This document shows, one piece after another, positions 43,149 through 50,239 of a DNA stretch of 64,000 bases (position 1 is its first letter; every line of letters starts with the position of its first letter). The DNA is taken from positions 1 through 64,000 of the forward strand of contig JAJFKX010000006.1 of assembly GCA_021772985.1 (NCBI GenBank), read 5' to 3'. The position numbers were made by a program, and so were the translations under genes. A model generated the notes under the pieces. The model was not told the origin of the DNA. It searched no databases and was given only the letters and a program-made list of their open reading frames with translations. The DNA comes from Gammaproteobacteria bacterium. Its GTDB lineage: Bacteria; Pseudomonadota; Gammaproteobacteria; Xanthomonadales; Wenzhouxiangellaceae.

Positions 43149-43913
43149 ATGCGGAATACACTAGTTAAAACAGCAATACTTCTAATGCTCGGGGCTGTCT
43201 TTATGGTAAGTACGGTTTCAGCACAAGTGCTGCAATCTACCATTGGGACTCAGAACAATATCAATAATGCATCAGAGGCTTCACAGGACCGTATTGATTC
43301 GGTTGCTGATGAAACTGAGGATATCCTTAACCAGTTTCGTCAGGTGGTCAGCGAGACCGACAGTCTTAAAGTCTACAACGCACAGTTGCAGCGCCTGGTG
43401 AATAATCAACGTACGGAACTGGCTTCGATTAACGAGCAGTTGGCGCAACTTGAATCTACCGACCGGGCAATTACACCGCTAATGATCGACATGGTCGACA
43501 CCCTTGAGCAAATCGTCGAGCGTGATGTGCCGTTTTTGCTGGATGATCGTCGGAGCCGGGTAGCCGATATGCGGATTTTACTGGATGATCCGAATGTCAC
43601 CGTGTCAGAAAAATACCGCCGGATACTGGAAGTCTATCAAGGTGAAATCGATTATGGTCGAACCACTTTTGCCTACGAAGGCAATTTGCCGGATAACACC
43701 AAGGTAACTTTCCTGCGCTTGGGACGGACTTTATTGTTGTATCAATCACTGGATGGTCAGACTACCGGCTGGTGGGATCCACAAACTCGCCAATTTGATA
43801 CAGTGGGTTCAGAGTATCGTTTAGCTGTTAAAGATGGTATCGCAATTGCTCAGAACCGACGCGCGCCTGATTTGGTGCTGCTACCTGTTCCTGCTCCGTC
43901 ATCTGCACGGTAA
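43149..43913 (+). CDS. DUF3450 periplasmic coiled-coil protein of the TonB2 operon
   Basis: This 254-residue protein has a signal peptide (cut after VSTVSAQ at about 26) and a coiled coil over about 35-105 rich in Gln, Glu and Leu. A conserved globular part follows (VPFLLDDRRSRVADMR, then FAYEGNL and LRLGRTLLLYQSLDG-TTGWWD). This is DUF3450, a family found as the first gene of TonB2/TtpC operons in Vibrio, Shewanella and relatives. Its role is not established, but the coiled coil and export suggest it works with the periplasmic part of the channel. The ribosome-binding site is weak (ACAGG). Confidence 0.88.
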   Translation: MRNTLVKTAILLMLGAVFMVSTVSAQVLQSTIGTQNNINNASEASQDRIDSVADETEDILNQFRQVVSETDSLKVYNAQLQRLVNNQRTELASINEQLAQLESTDRAITPLMIDMVDTLEQIVERDVPFLLDDRRSRVADMRILLDDPNVTVSEKYRRILEVYQGEIDYGRTTFAYEGNLPDNTKVTFLRLGRTLLLYQSLDGQTTGWWDPQTRQFDTVGSEYRLAVKDGIAIAQNRRAPDLVLLPVPAPSSAR

Positions 43914-43929
43914 TCCGGAGGAAATGATC

Positions 43930-45279
43930 ATGAAAAAATTATTGTTACTAATTTCTATCTTGATGGTTTCAGCAAGCCTGCAGGCCCAGCAGAATCCATT
44001 ACAGCAACTGGCCGAGGAAGTACAGCGTGCTTCACAACAGCAGGGCCAAATCAATCGTGAACGTGAAGCACAATTCGTACGGGAACGTAACCGGCAACGG
44101 GACTTGCTGGCACAGGCAAGGGCCGAATTGGCTGAACAGCGCCGGATCAGCGACAGTCTTCAGACTGAATTCGATGATAACGAGCGCCAACTGAGTGAGC
44201 TGGAAACAGTGTTGGATGAACGTTTGGGTAATCTCGGTGAATTGTTTGGTGTAGTACGCCAGGTTGCCGGTGACCTACAAAGTAAACTGGATGACTCCAT
44301 GGTCTCAGCTCAACTGCCAGGTCGTGGTGATTTCATGGCTGATTTGGCACAACGCCGGGAATTGCCTACAGGTGCAGAATTGAATCGGTTCTTTTCTGAA
44401 ATGGTGACCGAAATTGCCGAACAGGGCAAAGTGGTTCAATTCAACACCACTATCCGTGATGCTGATGGTCAGGAGGAAGCCAACCAATCGGTGGTTCGTG
44501 TTGGTGTTTTCAATGCGATCTCCAATGGTCGGTTCCTGCAGTGGGATTCTGGGCAGGGTGAACTGCAAGCTATCGCCCGTCAACCGGCTGGCCGCTATCA
44601 AAATATGGCCAGTAACCTGCAAAATGCTGGGCCTGGCGAAGTGGAAACAATGTCAGTTGATTTTACTCGTGGGGCAATTTTGTCACAGGTTGTTCAGGCC
44701 CCAACTTTGATGGAGCGTGTTCGGCAGGGTAAACAAGTGGGTTATGTAATCATCGGCCTGGGTATTATTGGGTTTTTATTCTCATTATGGAAAGGCACCA
44801 GCCTGTTCTTGAAAGGCAGCGCCATTAAACGTCAACTGAAGCGGGATCAGCCGGATCAGGGTAATGCTTTGGGTCGGGTTATGTCGGTTTATACCGAAAA
44901 CCAGGATTCTGATATTGAAACACTTGAACTTAAGCTGGACGAAGCCATTCTGCGTGAAACCGCACCGCTGGAATCTGGCCTGAGTTTCATCAAGGTGTTG
45001 TACGTCATTGCACCGTTACTGGGGTTGTTGGGTACCGTGGTTGGTATGATCGAAACTTTCCAGCAAATCACACTATTTGGTACCGGTGATCCACGGATGA
45101 TGGCCGGTGGTATTTCAGCTGCATTGATCACCACTACCCAAGGTTTAATCGTGGCGATTCCATTGACCATTCTGCACAGTTTGTTGCAAAGCCGCTCCCG
45201 TTCTTTGATCCAGATTCTGGAAGAACAGGCGGCTGGCATCATTTCTCGTTTAGCAGAGAAATATCATGGTAATGCTTAG
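43930..45279 (+). CDS. TtpC-like protein: ExbB/TolQ-type channel with long periplasmic N-terminus
   Basis: This 449-residue protein has a signal-like N-terminus (1-20) and a charged coiled coil (about 25-120). A periplasmic middle domain is followed by three membrane segments (269-288, 352-375, 395-420), the last two in a MotA/TolQ/ExbB domain with VIAPLLGLLGTVVGMIETFQQI. In Vibrio, TtpC is essential for TonB2-dependent iron uptake and is thought to extend the complex across the periplasm. ATG 43930 has a strong GGAGGA seven bases upstream. Earlier in-frame codons overlap the DUF3450 gene. The 3' end overlaps exbB by 14 bases. Confidence 0.92.
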   Translation: MKKLLLLISILMVSASLQAQQNPLQQLAEEVQRASQQQGQINREREAQFVRERNRQRDLLAQARAELAEQRRISDSLQTEFDDNERQLSELETVLDERLGNLGELFGVVRQVAGDLQSKLDDSMVSAQLPGRGDFMADLAQRRELPTGAELNRFFSEMVTEIAEQGKVVQFNTTIRDADGQEEANQSVVRVGVFNAISNGRFLQWDSGQGELQAIARQPAGRYQNMASNLQNAGPGEVETMSVDFTRGAILSQVVQAPTLMERVRQGKQVGYVIIGLGIIGFLFSLWKGTSLFLKGSAIKRQLKRDQPDQGNALGRVMSVYTENQDSDIETLELKLDEAILRETAPLESGLSFIKVLYVIAPLLGLLGTVVGMIETFQQITLFGTGDPRMMAGGISAALITTTQGLIVAIPLTILHSLLQSRSRSLIQILEEQAAGIISRLAEKYHGNA

Positions 45280-45790
45280 CGGTTTCTTTGAAACCATCCG
45301 CGGGTTTATTGAGCTCGGGGGCGATGTGCTGTGGGCAATTATGCTGGTGTTGTTCATGATGTGGTTCTGCATCATTGAGCGCTACTGGTATATGTATCGG
45401 ATTCATCCGAACCGCCGTAAGCAGATCGTTAGCGACTGGGAAAACCGTGTGGACACCACTTCCTGGTACGCTAAGCGGGTGCGCGATGAGATGATCTCCA
45501 TCGCGCAACAGGCGCTGACCCGAAACATGCAAACGATCAAGACGCTAATTGCGATCTGCCCATTGCTTGGTTTGCTGGGAACTGTGACAGGAATGGTTGG
45601 TGTTTTTGATGTAATGGCCTTTGCTGGTACCGGGAACGCGCGTGCCATGGCTGCAGGTGTATCAAAAGCAACCGTGCCAACTTTTGCCGGAATGGTCGCC
45701 GCATTGACCGGATTGTTCTTCAGTACACATCTGGAGCATCGTGCAGACGTTGAAACAGAACGTCTGGAAGACACGATGCATCACCACTAA
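45266..45790 (+). CDS. exbB: ExbB-type proton channel of the TonB2 system
   Basis: This 174-residue inner-membrane channel subunit uses the proton gradient with ExbD to drive TonB. Three hydrophobic segments lie at about 18-38, 94-116 and 131-155. The second and third carry CPLLGLLGTVTGMVGVFDVM and the conserved ATVPTFAGMVAALTGLFFS. The short N-terminus is typical of ExbB2 rather than E. coli ExbB (244). The start overlaps the TtpC-like gene, so translation is probably coupled. ATG 45272 is an alternative start. Confidence 0.94.
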   Translation: MVMLSGFFETIRGFIELGGDVLWAIMLVLFMMWFCIIERYWYMYRIHPNRRKQIVSDWENRVDTTSWYAKRVRDEMISIAQQALTRNMQTIKTLIAICPLLGLLGTVTGMVGVFDVMAFAGTGNARAMAAGVSKATVPTFAGMVAALTGLFFSTHLEHRADVETERLEDTMHHH

Positions 45791-45807
45791 AGTCCAGGAA
45801 CACATAC

Positions 45808-46215
45808 ATGGCAAGAAGACACGCTCAAAAAGACGAGGCTGAAATTAACATTACACCGATGTTGGACATCGTGTTTATTATGTTGATTTTCTTTATCGTT
45901 ACCACTTCCTTCACCAAAGAGACAGGCGCTGATATCACCAAGCCAACGGCTATAAGTTCGGAAAACAAACCTCGAGGAAACATCTTGGTCGGCTTACGGT
46001 CAAATGGAGATGTATGGATGAACGGTGGCCCAATTGAGCTGAATCAGGTGCGGACCTATGTTGAACGCGCACTCTCTGAAAACCCAGAAGGCAAGGTTGT
46101 ATTGATAGCAGATAAGGGAGCAAGAACAGGCGATTTAGTACAGGTGATGGATCAGATTAAGCTGGCCGAAGTAAGCGACATTTCAATTTCAGCTGATCTA
46201 CCAGCCGGGAGTTAA
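45808..46215 (+). CDS. exbD: ExbD-type biopolymer transport protein
   Basis: This 135-residue protein has one membrane segment (about 20-40). The protonatable Asp20 lies in INITPMLDIVFIMLIFF, equivalent to D25 of E. coli ExbD. The periplasmic domain VVLIADKGARTGDLVQVMDQI is typical. It works with ExbB as the motor that energises TonB. It starts 17 bases after exbB. Confidence 0.95.
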   Translation: MARRHAQKDEAEINITPMLDIVFIMLIFFIVTTSFTKETGADITKPTAISSENKPRGNILVGLRSNGDVWMNGGPIELNQVRTYVERALSENPEGKVVLIADKGARTGDLVQVMDQIKLAEVSDISISADLPAGS

Positions 46216-46220
46216 ACATT

Positions 46221-46862
46221 ATGATGAGTTCAGGCATTCGATATCCAGGCGCGGCTATTTTGGCCGTGGTAGTTACACTGACTGCTTTTTTTCTTATGCA
46301 CCGATTGATTTCCAGTGAGGGTGTTCGCGGTGATGCTGGTGACCAACCGCCCAGTATTCGTTTCGCTGATGTCAATATACCTGATTCAATTCAGCAGAAA
46401 ATACGAAAAAAGCCACCACCACCTCCTCCGCCTAAAGAACCTCCGCCGCCACCTAAAATGCAGATCAGTCAACCCGATCAGGTTGTACAAAATTTGCCGG
46501 AGTTGGATTTGCCAGCGCTTGATGTGCCATTCAGCGGAACTGGAGGTCCATTCCTTGGTGGTTTCGCCAAGGTTGATAGAAATGAAGAGGGCGATATTAT
46601 TCCGCTGGTGCGTATTCAGCCCCAATATCCGCGTGAGGCGGCTATCCGACGCTTGGAAGGTTGGGTGAAAATCGAATTTACAATTACCCCAGCTGGTACG
46701 GTTACCAAACCGAGTGTAGTTGACTCCGAACCATCCCGCGTATTTGATCGCGAAGCAATTCGAGCCATTCTCAAGTGGAAATTCAAACCCAGAGTAGTTG
46801 ATGGTGTTCCAGTTGAGCGGCGGGCAACGCAAATCATCGATTTTAAACTGGAGCAGGTATAA
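46221..46862 (+). CDS. tonB: TonB energy-transducing protein
   Basis: This 213-residue TonB has an N-terminal membrane anchor (about 9-27) and a proline-rich rod with KKPPPPPPPKEPPPPPK (63-79), much shorter than that of E. coli TonB. The C-terminal domain has PQYPREAAIRRLEGWVKIEF and RAILKWKFKPRVVDGVPVERR. The short rod fits the TonB2 type, where TtpC is thought to compensate for the reach across the periplasm. It starts 5 bases after exbD. Confidence 0.95.
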   Translation: MMSSGIRYPGAAILAVVVTLTAFFLMHRLISSEGVRGDAGDQPPSIRFADVNIPDSIQQKIRKKPPPPPPPKEPPPPPKMQISQPDQVVQNLPELDLPALDVPFSGTGGPFLGGFAKVDRNEEGDIIPLVRIQPQYPREAAIRRLEGWVKIEFTITPAGTVTKPSVVDSEPSRVFDREAIRAILKWKFKPRVVDGVPVERRATQIIDFKLEQV

Positions 46863-46923
46863 GCATATCCAGAAACGTTGATCGCAAAATAACACAGCAG
46901 AAACACACCAAAGGAGTGTAGCT

Positions 46924-47157
46924 ATGTTGTTTAAAATTACCAGATATCTATCGATTTCTGAGGTTGCGATCAGCATTACTCTGGGTTGTTTCTTAATAAT
47001 GCAGCAGTTACTGCAAAAGCTGTATTTGCAGCTGGATATTCTGGATGTTGCTATTCCAAACAAGAGGTTTGTTTATCAGGACAAGGTTGGGCCTGAGTCG
47101 GATTTTGGTGATGGGCAATTAGTCAAACTTATCGAATTCAATTTACAGGGTGGTTGA
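46924..47157 (+). CDS. Small unrecognised membrane protein inside the TonB2 operon
   Basis: This 77-residue product matches no family I know. Evidence that it is real: a strong AAGGAG (46911-46916) seven bases before ATG 46924; the same strand and spacing as its operon neighbours tonB (61 bases) and the TPR gene (56 bases); and a plausible protein. It has one hydrophobic helix (about 12-38, VAISITLGCFLIMQQLL) followed by a polar tail with DKVGPESDFGDGQLVKL. It could be a small accessory subunit of the motor, or a decayed reading frame that kept its ribosome-binding site. Confidence 0.55.
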   Translation: MLFKITRYLSISEVAISITLGCFLIMQQLLQKLYLQLDILDVAIPNKRFVYQDKVGPESDFGDGQLVKLIEFNLQGG

Positions 47158-47213
47158 GTGCTAATACCGATCAATAGCCTCAATCCATTTATTTATCACA
47201 GGAGTTATCAGAC

Positions 47214-48470
47214 ATGAGATATCGCAACTTATACCAACTGATCATAGTAGTTATATCGATGTTTGTGGTGTTAACCCCGGCATTAGCGCAAAATCAATGT
47301 GGCGCTGAGCGTGACGTTAGAGCCCAGGCATTGGATGAGGCGACATTCAAGCAGTTGTCTGATATTTATGAAGATATCGGTGAGGAAAATTTTGCTGACG
47401 CGAAAAAAGGCCTGGATCGGATGTTGAGCCGGTCCAAGGATGGTTCTTATCCGCAATCGATAATTTTGCAGGCGCTGGGGCATACTGCAGCCTCAGAGGA
47501 AGATTATGACGGTGCCTTGGTTTATTTCCAACGCTCAGTAGATATTAATGCATTGCCCAATCGGCAGCATTATCAGATGATTTATTCCATCGCACAACTG
47601 TTGATCGCCAGGGAACGCTATCGTGAAGGGCTGGAAAAATTAGAAGAATGGTTTTGTGTAACACCACCTGAAAATGTTACTTCAAACGCATATCTGTTGA
47701 AAGCCAGTGCTAATGTTGAACTCGAAAATTACCGTGAAGCATTGACTGCTATCGATATGGCCATATCGCTGGAAAGCGCACCCAAAGAAAACTGGTATCA
47801 GATGAAACTGGGTATCAATTTTGAATTAGACGATTTGCCTTCTGCAGCTAAAACGCTGGAAATCATGATTAATTTGTGGCCGGATAAAGAAAACTACTGG
47901 AAGCAGCTATCTTCAGTTTATTTGAACCTCAAAGATGAAAACAAAGCGTTGTCTGTATTGGCTTTGGCTTATCGCAAGAACATGCTCGATACTTCCCAAG
48001 AAATACTTCAGTTGTCTAGTCTGTATCAATATCGTGATGTGCCGTACGAAGCTGCCAAGGTATTGGAAAAAGGGATTAATGACGGCATCGTCGAATCTAA
48101 TCAAAGATACTGGGAACAAACCGCCAATGCCTGGTATCAGGCACGGGAACTGGAAAACGCTTTAAATGCATTTGAAAAAGCCGGTCAGTATTCTGATGAT
48201 GGCAGTATTGACTTACGCCGCGCATTTATTTTGGTTGATCGTCAAGAATGGGAACCAGCAAAGACTGCCTTGCAAAGGGCCATTGATAAAGGTGGTTTGA
48301 AAGACAGTGAGACAGGAAATGCTTATTTATTAATTGGCATGTCTGAAATGAATCTTGAACGTTTTGATGCAGCAACCAGTGCGTTCGATAATGCTTTGCG
48401 ATATGAACGTAGCCGGAGTGCTGCGCGTCAGTGGAAAGAGCAAGTAGTGCAACGTCGCGCAGCTGGATAA
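47214..48470 (+). CDS. TPR-repeat periplasmic protein ending the TonB2 operon
   Basis: This 418-residue protein has a signal peptide (cut near VVLTPALAQ, about 25) and tetratricopeptide repeats over most of its length (for example DYDGALVYFQRSVDINALP, NYREALTAIDMAISLESAP, ELENALNAFEKAGQYSDDG, RFDAATSAFDNALRYERS). In Vibrio and Shewanella TonB2 operons the gene after tonB2 also encodes a TPR protein, thought to assist the complex. CAGGAG lies 8 bases before the ATG. It is followed by the AT-hook gene after 45 bases. Confidence 0.9.
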   Translation: MRYRNLYQLIIVVISMFVVLTPALAQNQCGAERDVRAQALDEATFKQLSDIYEDIGEENFADAKKGLDRMLSRSKDGSYPQSIILQALGHTAASEEDYDGALVYFQRSVDINALPNRQHYQMIYSIAQLLIARERYREGLEKLEEWFCVTPPENVTSNAYLLKASANVELENYREALTAIDMAISLESAPKENWYQMKLGINFELDDLPSAAKTLEIMINLWPDKENYWKQLSSVYLNLKDENKALSVLALAYRKNMLDTSQEILQLSSLYQYRDVPYEAAKVLEKGINDGIVESNQRYWEQTANAWYQARELENALNAFEKAGQYSDDGSIDLRRAFILVDRQEWEPAKTALQRAIDKGGLKDSETGNAYLLIGMSEMNLERFDAATSAFDNALRYERSRSAARQWKEQVVQRRAAG

Positions 48471-48515: not shown

Positions 48516-49271
48516 ATGAACGATGATCAAGTGTTGATAAGCGAAGAGCAAGCCGCTGGTGATGCTGCAGACGGTAAAGTTTCCAATGCAGCAGCAGTCA
48601 CTGGCGCTGGTGAATCAGCTAAGCCGGCGAAGAAAAAAGTGACCAAAAAGAAAGCTACTAAAAAGAAGGCCACTAAGAAAAAAGTCGCCAAAAAGAAAAC
48701 AACTACAAAAAAAGCAGCTACTAAGAAAACCAGTAAGAAAAAAGTCAGCAAGAAAGGTCGGCCTAAGAAAGCCGGCAAGAAAGGTCGGCCCAAGAAAGTA
48801 GGCAAGAAAGGACGGCCCAAGAAAGTAGGCAAGAAAGGTCGGCCCAAGAAAGTAGGCAAGAAAGGACGGCCCAAGAAAGTAGGTAAGAAAGGTCGGCCCA
48901 AGAAAGTAGGTAAGAAAGGACGGCCTAAAAAAGTTGCCGAGGAAGTTGTCAAAAAAGTAGGCAAGAAAGGTCGACCCAAAAAAGTAAGTAAAAAAGGACG
49001 ACCCAAGAAAGCTAGCAAGAAAGGTCGGCCCAAGAAGGCCGGTAATGAAGCAACTGGTAGTTTATCTAATGTACATGATCACACTACCGCCATTGCCCGG
49101 CATTTGCAGGCTGCGGTGGATGAAATTGTGACGGTTATTGCCAATGAATTGCGCAGTCGCTCTGATGAAATCGTTAAGCGTGCCAATGCTTTGCAATCTG
49201 ATGCTGAAGCAAAACTCTCTAGTGTTGAGTCTGCAGCCCGGCAAACGTTAAAAGCGTTGCGCGGAAAGTAA
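48516..49271 (+). CDS. AT-hook repeat, histone H1-like nucleoid protein
   Basis: This 251-residue protein is very rich in Lys. Residues 1-36 are acidic, and 37-78 are KK(A/T/V)-type repeats like those of AlgP/histone-H1-like proteins. Residues 79-176 hold ten copies of the 9-residue unit KKGRPKK(V/A)(G/S/A), each with the AT-hook core GRP flanked by Lys. Residues 182-251 form an amphipathic helical tail (IARHLQAAVDEIVTVIANELRSRSDEIV split by short polar stretches). AT-hooks bind the minor groove of A/T-rich DNA, so a DNA-compacting or regulatory role is inferred. The nearest known types are AlgP of Pseudomonas and AT-hook proteins such as CarD of Myxococcus, but similarity of low-complexity sequence is weak evidence. 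Confidence 0.8.
   Translation: MNDDQVLISEEQAAGDAADGKVSNAAAVTGAGESAKPAKKKVTKKKATKKKATKKKVAKKKTTTKKAATKKTSKKKVSKKGRPKKAGKKGRPKKVGKKGRPKKVGKKGRPKKVGKKGRPKKVGKKGRPKKVGKKGRPKKVAEEVVKKVGKKGRPKKVSKKGRPKKASKKGRPKKAGNEATGSLSNVHDHTTAIARHLQAAVDEIVTVIANELRSRSDEIVKRANALQSDAEAKLSSVESAARQTLKALRGK
48750..49043 (+). repeat. 27-bp coding tandem repeats with 54-bp higher-order period
   Basis: Seven contiguous 27-base units (48750-48938), a 24-base degenerate spacer, and three more units (48963-49043) encode KKGRPKKxx. The Gly codon before RP alternates GGT, GGA, GGT, GGA from the second unit through the tenth. The units therefore pair into 54-base dimers, a sign that the array grew by duplication of two-unit blocks. 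The spacer lies between units that keep the alternation. Confidence 0.9.
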
Positions 49272-49285
49272 TCGGACGAAACCTA

Positions 49286-50239
49286 ATGGTACCTATGCCA
49301 AAGGCTCAGCCTGAGGCAAGTTCTGAAGGAAAAGCCGGTAGCGAGTTGCTACCGGCTTTTACACATCAAATACAGGCTTTTTTGGATGTGATCTGGTCTG
49401 AACGTGGGCTGGCGGATAACACACTGCAAAGTTACCAGCAGGACTTAAATGCGTTTGCAGAGTTTATTTCTGATCATGCCGGCAATATTGCAGCTGTAAC
49501 CGCTGCTGAGATACAGATGTATTTAAATAGCCTGCACATAAACGGCATGAGTAGTGCCACTGTGGCTCGCAGAGTGTCATGTTTACGGCAATTTTTCCGC
49601 TGGGCAGCAAATAATGGACTGATTACCGAAGACCCAACCGCGTTGTTGGTGTCGCCACGGCAAATTCGTCAATTACCTTCGGCATTGAATGAAAGTGAAA
49701 TTGACTCGCTGCTTGATATCAATACCAAACAACGTTTGGGGCTGCGTGATAAGGCGATGCTGGAGCTGCTGTATGCAACAGGGCTGCGTGTGAGCGAACT
49801 GGTACAGATTAAGCAGGAAGATCTAAGTCTACGGCAAGGCGTGGTAAGGGTGCTTGGCAAAGGCAGCAAAGAACGACTGGTGCCGATTGGTGAACGAGCT
49901 CTGGATGCGTTGCAAACTTACCTGTTTGAACAACGGCCGAAGTTATTGCAAAACGTTGTGCAGACGGCTTTGTTTTTGACTGAGCGAGGGAAGCCTATGA
50001 CTCGCCAGGCATTTTGGTATTTGATCAAACGGCATGCTCAGCGTGCGGGGATTTCCAATAAATTGTCACCACATGTGCTCAGGCATTGCTTTGCGACACA
50101 CCTACTGGATCATGGTGCTGATTTGAGAGTGGTGCAATTGTTGTTGGGGCACAGCGATTTATCGACCACTCAAATTTACACGCACATTGCACGTGAGCGA
50201 TTGCAAGCATTGCATTCAACTCATCATCCACGAGGCTGA
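49286..50239 (+). CDS. xerD: Tyrosine recombinase XerD
   Basis: Resolves chromosome dimers at dif with XerC. All catalytic residues are present (numbering from ATG 49286): R168 in ATGLRVSELV, K192 in GKGSKERLVP, H263 and R266 in SPHVLRHCFATHLL, H289 in LLGHSDLSTTQIYTH, Y298. XerD rather than XerC is supported by the ending HHPRG and by dsbC downstream, as in E. coli. The product has 317 residues, 19 more than E. coli XerD (298). A TTG at 49346 would give 297 residues, matching the usual length, and the extra 20 codons contain a terminator-like hairpin. The true start is therefore open. Confidence 0.93.
   Translation: MVPMPKAQPEASSEGKAGSELLPAFTHQIQAFLDVIWSERGLADNTLQSYQQDLNAFAEFISDHAGNIAAVTAAEIQMYLNSLHINGMSSATVARRVSCLRQFFRWAANNGLITEDPTALLVSPRQIRQLPSALNESEIDSLLDINTKQRLGLRDKAMLELLYATGLRVSELVQIKQEDLSLRQGVVRVLGKGSKERLVPIGERALDALQTYLFEQRPKLLQNVVQTALFLTERGKPMTRQAFWYLIKRHAQRAGISNKLSPHVLRHCFATHLLDHGADLRVVQLLLGHSDLSTTQIYTHIARERLQALHSTHHPRG
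49330..49360 (+). terminator. Terminator-like hairpin within the 5' end of xerD
   Basis: AAAAGCCGGTAGC (49330-49342), loop GAGTT, and GCTACCGGCTTTT (49348-49360) form a perfect 13-bp stem. The right arm ends in four T. It lies 59 bases after the stop of the AT-hook gene and overlaps the first codons assigned to xerD. It looks like the intrinsic terminator of the AT-hook transcript, or a leader element controlling read-through into xerD. Confidence 0.6.

Follow-up and report, generated by a model that had tools for sequence, protein, structure and literature searches.

We found that the window, the whole stretch of 64,000 nucleotides that was analysed, contains immediately before xerD a gene for a very basic, mostly predicted disordered protein with ten hook-like repeats and a long helical tail, and that most of the family has a lysine-rich gene at this place before xerD. 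We regard the gene product as rather likely to be a nucleoid-associated protein of the linker-histone-like (H1-like, HMGA-like) type, based on the homology of its tail to the other tails of the family, the kept xerD locus and the invariant KKGRPKK units. The likelihoods given below to rival functions are not mutually exclusive.

Organization of the KGRP-array gene and its product

The gene occupies positions 48516..49271 on the plus strand, as judged from the open reading frame, its translation and homologues at the same locus, and encodes a protein of 251 aa with 70 lysines and a net charge (K+R-D-E) of +67. On the same strand, a lysine-poor N-terminal segment (residues 1-36, 48516..48623), with pLDDT mostly <50, is followed by a lysine-rich region of KKKxx pentamers (residues 37-78, 48624..48749), which resembles the pentamer arrays of relatives. 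The initial annotation had described an AlgP-like KKAT region before the array; the residues are KKKxx pentamers, however, and not the KPAA tetramers given for AlgP in the accessible part of PMC9239181. The array itself consists of seven KKGRPKKxx units of 27 bp apiece, arranged head to tail (units 1-7, 48750..48938), a 24-bp interruption after unit 7 (48939..48962) and units 8-10 (48963..49043), and has a score of 373 as a 27-bp array (TRF). A conserved C-terminal helix (residues 183-249, 49062..49262), with an 11-residue hydrophobic pattern, was delimited by AlphaFold2, a profile match and a hendecad test.

The coordinates of the open reading frame and the count of ten units were verified, as was the claim that the Gly codon alternates between GGT and GGA through units 2-10, the codons being GGT, GGT, GGA, GGT, GGA, GGT and GGA in units 1-7 and GGT, GGA and GGT in units 8-10. 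The further claim that the 27-base units pair into 54-base dimers holds for the alternation but not for an unbroken series of dimers, since the 24 bp coding 8 other residues split units 7 and 8.

According to the accessible parts of two sources, GRP is the core of the AT-hook (PMC10011098) and the hooks of HMG-I(Y) read R-G-R-P, with Arg on both sides of Gly (PMC4466236). In the four proteins with KGRP arrays, all 36 GRP sites read KKGRPKK, with only the linker pair of residues varying, so that a GRP core with basic flanks is present at every site, but Gly is preceded by Lys in 36/36 and the canonical RGRP is found at none. The Pfam profile AT_hook (PF02178) scored 9.6 bits with a two-unit piece and 7.4 with the array, against a gathering cut-off of 17.4, and was not listed when the full-length protein was searched at E <= 1; it exceeded the cut-off in 0/8 genomes and likewise in none of 14 control genomes. 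Because the core and its basic flanks are combined with Lys before Gly and a score below the cut-off, we call the array AT-hook-like, which keeps the GRP core with flanking Lys of the initial annotation but not its plain AT-hook. Such an array may work like an AT-hook, with weaker single contacts being offset by ten units and 70 lysines.

In the AlphaFold2 model (two sequences), the confidently folded part of the protein is a single helix (residues 183-249; 58 residues of the model with pLDDT >= 90); confidence outside the helix was low (mean 63.6, pTM 0.26). Lysine-rich pentamers are present both in residues 37-78 here and in the arrays of relatives, the former lying in low-pLDDT chain. We found a peak of hydrophobic periodicity at 97-99 degrees in 10/10 tails tested (shuffle p 0.002-0.06). 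A hendecad pattern was above shuffles in 19/19 tails (p 0.023 or less), which do not amount to 19 independent tests, as the tails are related and the hendecad test was picked after the periodogram; a heptad coiled coil was above shuffles in 0/19 (lowest p 0.168). The amphipathic helical tail proposed earlier is retained as one predicted helix, but with hendecad periodicity instead of a heptad coiled coil. An 11-residue pattern suits a hendecad bundle or a helix on a lipid or granule surface, not a plain leucine zipper. For the whole protein, Pfam at E <= 1 listed DUF5713 alone, below cut-off, and assignments of the tail to DUF5713, Apolipoprotein or other weak Pfam families were rejected, all being under their own cut-offs. 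A sequence search of solved structures gave no match to the array.

Relatives carrying the array

A sequence search of 61 genomes gave matches in 16 at E <= 0.001, and those extending over both array and tail were the window's own, one in the same genus (G001; genus g1) and two in another genus (G004 and G008; g4). The next match, in a genome of another family (G050; E 4e-13), was a lysine- and alanine-rich protein with a single GRP, and the remaining matches were weak (E 2e-6 or worse). KGRP arrays were detected in four genomes, and a profile made from the four KGRP tails of these genomes gave no match in the rest of the 43 family genomes. The KKKxx region before the array is retained in the g1 proteins and hardly so in those of g4. 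Among 369 genomes of the class, a match to the array query was confined to the genome of the window, as was the match to the tail profile in the class sample; this genome was the sole family member listed in both class-wide samples. A contig scan of the genomes gave at least one locus, L022, among the matches listed. A mobile or plasmid origin was rejected, as searches of plasmids, phages and viral contigs gave no match. In the open-licence papers covered, we found no description of the gene.

A family-wide tail linked to xerD

A first tail profile, built from 16 tails with the four KGRP proteins left out, scored the KGRP tails at 19.0-25.6 bits versus 12.2 for the best of 2000 shuffled tails, indicating that the KGRP tails are homologous to those of the family. 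A second profile (A2), built from 19 tails and run on 299 genomes of the order, matched in 34/43 family genomes and 0/256 other genomes; 19 of the 34 had provided rows of the profile and match by construction, and the other 15 are independent, although G023 among these matched solely through a paralogue.

In the window, xerD (49286..50239, plus strand) begins 14 bp downstream of the KGRP-array gene and scored 377.1 bits with TIGR02225 (cut-off 329.6). Among 37 family genomes searched for XerD, 33 had a strong match (below 1e-70), two lay short of this line (G030 and G034, about 1e-62 to 1e-64) and two were unmatched at 1e-60 (G015 and G023). The tail was found directly upstream of xerD in 30 of the 33 genomes with a strong match, at distances of -5 to 122 bp between the tail and xerD matches; tail matches in G213, G220 and G223:C287 are not part of this count. 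As to the exceptions, G003 has before xerD a lysine-array gene with a different end, and G019 and G035, with genomes of 1.7-1.8 Mb, have XerD while the gene was not found, showing that it is not indispensable. In the G003 gene (L031), GRRGRKK closes the lysine array and the tail is unlike the family profile. The 30 linked genes comprise four with KGRP and 24 with lysine pentamers (mostly KKKAS), several of the 24 arrays being seen only in part because a contig end cuts them; in G017 and G028 the contig starts at the tail, placing the array outside the data.

The upstream neighbour in the window is a gene for a TPR-repeat protein (47214..48470, plus strand; TPR by Pfam). A TPR gene occupies this position in G000, G001, G004, G008 and some other genomes; in several g6 genomes the neighbour is a divergent gene for a membrane protein, which by eye looks RDD-like. 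In outgroups (e.g. G043, G051 and G060), a TPR-like gene identified by eye immediately precedes xerD and the lysine-rich gene is missing, suggesting that the lysine-rich gene arose or arrived between the two. By eye, the region 43834-48470 of the window, upstream of the KGRP gene, appears as an ExbB/ExbD/TonB-like cluster followed by the TPR gene.

The fixed place before xerD would be explained if the protein were a partner of XerD, acting as a factor in chromosome-dimer resolution or in organization of the terminus. The adjacency in 30/33 genomes, at -5 to 122 bp, fits this proposal, as does the change of upstream neighbour, which is a TPR gene in some genomes and a divergently oriented gene for a membrane protein (identified by eye) in others. 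However, the adjacency could simply reflect inertia or co-transcription, the tail also occurs in paralogues at other loci, G019 and G035 carry XerD without the gene, and in g1 a hairpin stands between the gene and the conserved part of xerD, so that we consider a partnership with XerD highly improbable. This hairpin, in which a perfect 9-bp inverted repeat precedes TTTT (49334..49356, plus strand, within the region 49334-49360), lies within the annotated 5' end of xerD; it recurs in G001, where the T run is longer and the outer pair is altered on each side, and is absent from G004. The element may serve as a terminator or attenuator, in which case xerD may start later than the first ATG. Since our terminator scan requires 5 T in 8, the hairpin was not flagged. 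Scanned for promoters and terminators, the surroundings of the gene gave nothing above shuffles (4 promoter-like sequences vs 5.4 in shuffles, and 4 terminator-like sequences vs 3.8, each of the latter four being on the minus strand).

We found eight tail matches at other loci, in G014, G023, G024 (two), G026 (two), G033 and G223, the last of which runs off its contig. In four of these eight paralogues, in G033, G024, G026 and G023 (L122, L123, L126 and L130), the canonical RGRPPG precedes lysine pentamers; the four may form one orthologous group and do not necessarily represent four separate events. A second type of paralogue (L124 and L127), with longer spacers, lies near a gene that by eye is aspartokinase-like. 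A ninth tail match, G024:C252 (L125), adjoins a second xerD start and may be contamination of that assembly. Its protein looks identical to the xerD-linked protein of G029.

One clade (support 99/98) united the four KGRP genomes in a tree built from the XerD of 30 genomes, but the family as a whole did not form a clade, G003 and the KGRP clade falling on the outgroup side (branch 99/95) under a midpoint root. The simplest reading is a switch from lysine pentamer to KGRP, the direction of which we state as an inference because of the split of the family and the midpoint rooting.

Evolution of the repeats

The four KGRP arrays contain 10 units in the window and 8, 9 and 9 in the three relatives, a comparison that is between species only, with one genome per species. 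We found 26 distinct DNA versions among the 36 units, all encoding the same heptapeptide, suggesting that the peptide is held by selection. In four comparisons over the tail and N terminus (tail: three pairs), dN/dS was 0.05-0.13, of which only the direction is meaningful, as dS exceeds 1.5 and is saturated. Units 2-6 of the window array are almost identical, so that the array may plausibly have expanded locally, and recently, in this genome.

Variation in copy number had been proposed in the initial annotation, possibly in steps of two units. Unit counts do differ among species, but two-unit steps are unsupported beyond the alternation in the window's gene: a comparison of 21-nt units at lag 1 vs lag 2 gave permutation p values of 0.11 (units 1-10), 0.06 (units 2-10) and 0.07 (units 2-7), the interruption splits the array, and the alternation of Gly codons is absent from all three relatives with a KGRP array.

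It might also be proposed that the gene is a contingency array, in which changes of copy number or frame switch or tune the protein, a proposal compatible with the other functions considered here. For example, the tail is encoded in another frame than the array in G005 (L071), G009 (L072) and G022 (L060), a contig end lies in or at the array, <=250 bp from the tail, at 12 of the 30 xerD-linked loci, and pentamer numbers vary widely between genomes; in addition, in G006 and G013 another contig stops inside the apparent first part of such a gene. The frame changes may represent true slippage, but they could be sequencing errors, and both the contig ends and the frame shifts fit either repeat slippage or trouble in assembly or sequencing. 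With each species represented by one genome, no change within a species was seen, and the KGRP units have mostly diverged in DNA, as their 26 versions attest. We therefore regard a contingency function as improbable.

A probable role in the nucleoid

The evidence is best accommodated by a bacterial histone-H1-like DNA-packing protein, which the gene probably encodes, with the DNA-gripping unit differing between lineages; the H1-like character is suggested by the plain lysine repeats that relatives carry at the same place. In such a protein, the disordered and highly positive arm (residues 37-176) would wrap DNA, the ten KKGRPKK units would put Gly-Arg-Pro into narrow, A/T-rich minor grooves, and the flanking lysines would grip the backbone, so that binding would be multivalent and strong. 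The 67-residue amphipathic C-terminal helix would join molecules together or to a partner surface, and the bound DNA would be bridged or compacted by molecules joined in this way. Elsewhere in the family, lysine pentamers such as KKKAS would act non-specifically, in the manner of H1 or Hc2, and in the lineage of g1 and g4 the unit would have become a KGRP nonamer, gaining a preference for A/T-rich DNA. DNA binding, A/T preference, bridging and oligomerization are thus putative properties of the KGRP-array protein, and the earlier interpretation, a DNA-bridging AT-hook protein of variable copy number, is partly supported.

Several further observations argue for a nucleoid protein, including the pairing of lysine pentamers with canonical RGRPPG in 4/8 tail paralogues, the search for H-NS, which found none in 43 family genomes, and parallels in the accessible parts of the literature. 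Both Hc2 of Chlamydia, which binds DNA, and the H1-like proteins of Bordetella contain lysine pentamers in varying repeat number (PMC2848022), and the HMGA-like domain of CarD from Myxococcus xanthus has four RGRP hooks that bind the minor groove of A/T-rich DNA (PMC4374960). The proposal is weakened by the AT_hook scores below cut-off, an array without a structure match, an 11-residue pattern that also suits lipid or granule surfaces, the split of the family in the XerD tree and the missing gene in G019 and G035.

The H-NS domain (PF00816) was found in 0/43 family genomes, with the E. coli control positive, raising the question of whether the protein stands in for H-NS, with many weak contacts in the A/T minor groove and a self-associating helix silencing A/T-rich acquired genes. 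The GC content of the xerD locus, 45-57% in the four KGRP genomes vs 57-65% in the 15 g6 loci measured, would be in keeping with such a role. However, most family members have lysine pentamers and are likewise without H-NS, we know of no A/T preference of lysine pentamers, and the G003 locus has 45% GC yet carries a pentamer array. MvaT was found in none of 4 genomes, but its control gave no signal either, so that MvaT may still be present. We consider replacement of H-NS distinctly improbable.

The main alternative, a different use of the same parts, would be a tether of the PhaF/AlgP type, with the helix on a granule or membrane and the basic arm on the nucleoid, an arrangement that would space granules and divide them between daughter cells. 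Hendecad faces of this kind occur on lipid-surface helices, and the tail has a weak match to Apolipoprotein (E 0.011; 15.9 bits vs a cut-off of 90). Polyphosphate kinase was found in 39/43 family genomes and in 4/4 KGRP genomes, but three genomes with the gene (G007, G010 and G018) gave no PP_kinase match; PHA synthase (PhaC_N) was found in 16/43 family genomes and 0/4 KGRP genomes, making a PHA-granule phasin unlikely in the latter, and the Phasin profile was unlisted for the protein or its tail. In the accessible parts of the sources, PhaF combines a long amphipathic helix with a lysine-rich DNA-binding domain (PMC3574117), and AlgP is needed to keep polyphosphate granules evenly spaced (PMC9239181); the domain order here, however, is opposite to that of both. 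A tether to polyphosphate granules is possible, but we consider tethering as a whole unlikely.

Returning to the nucleoid protein, a more specific scenario, which we put forward only tentatively and think doubtful, is that the family evolved its own linker-histone-like protein, fixed beside xerD, and that one lineage swapped the pentamer for an A/T-reading KGRP unit, turning a general compactor into an A/T-selective organizer, possibly at the terminus with XerD. If this were true, these bacteria would represent a natural chromatin experiment, in which one scaffold (tail and locus) carries two different DNA-binding repeat units in related bacteria in which no H-NS was found, and a comparison of the arrays would test the effect of A/T specificity on genome folding and silencing. 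The protein would also enlarge the small set of bacterial proteins known with repeated hooks, for which CarD is the example in the papers covered.

Comparison with known systems

The KGRP-array protein shares with HMGA and PF02178 a GRP core among basic residues, with Lys here replacing Arg before GRP. With H-NS and Lsr2 it may share contact with the A/T minor groove via a Gly-Arg element, but PF00816 is not found in the 43 family genomes, and here the hooks form an array in one chain. In AlgP and PhaF of Pseudomonas, a helical part is likewise joined to a lysine-rich, disordered DNA-binding part, but, as far as the accessible parts of these papers describe them (PMC9239181 and PMC3574117), they have KPAA repeats and an N-terminal helical domain, whereas the helix here is C-terminal and hendecad, and there is no KPAA array. 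Hc2 of Chlamydia and BpH1 of Bordetella resemble the present family in having tandem lysine-rich pentamers, with length set by repeat number, and differ in that their description in the accessible part of PMC2848022 mentions neither GRP hooks nor a link to xerD. CarD is similar in being a bacterial protein with a disordered basic domain and repeated hooks; it differs, by the accessible part of PMC4374960, in its folded N-terminal domain, which binds RNA polymerase and CarG, and in its RGRP hooks, whereas in the protein described here ten KGRP hooks are combined with a region of lysine pentamers and a helix at the C terminus.
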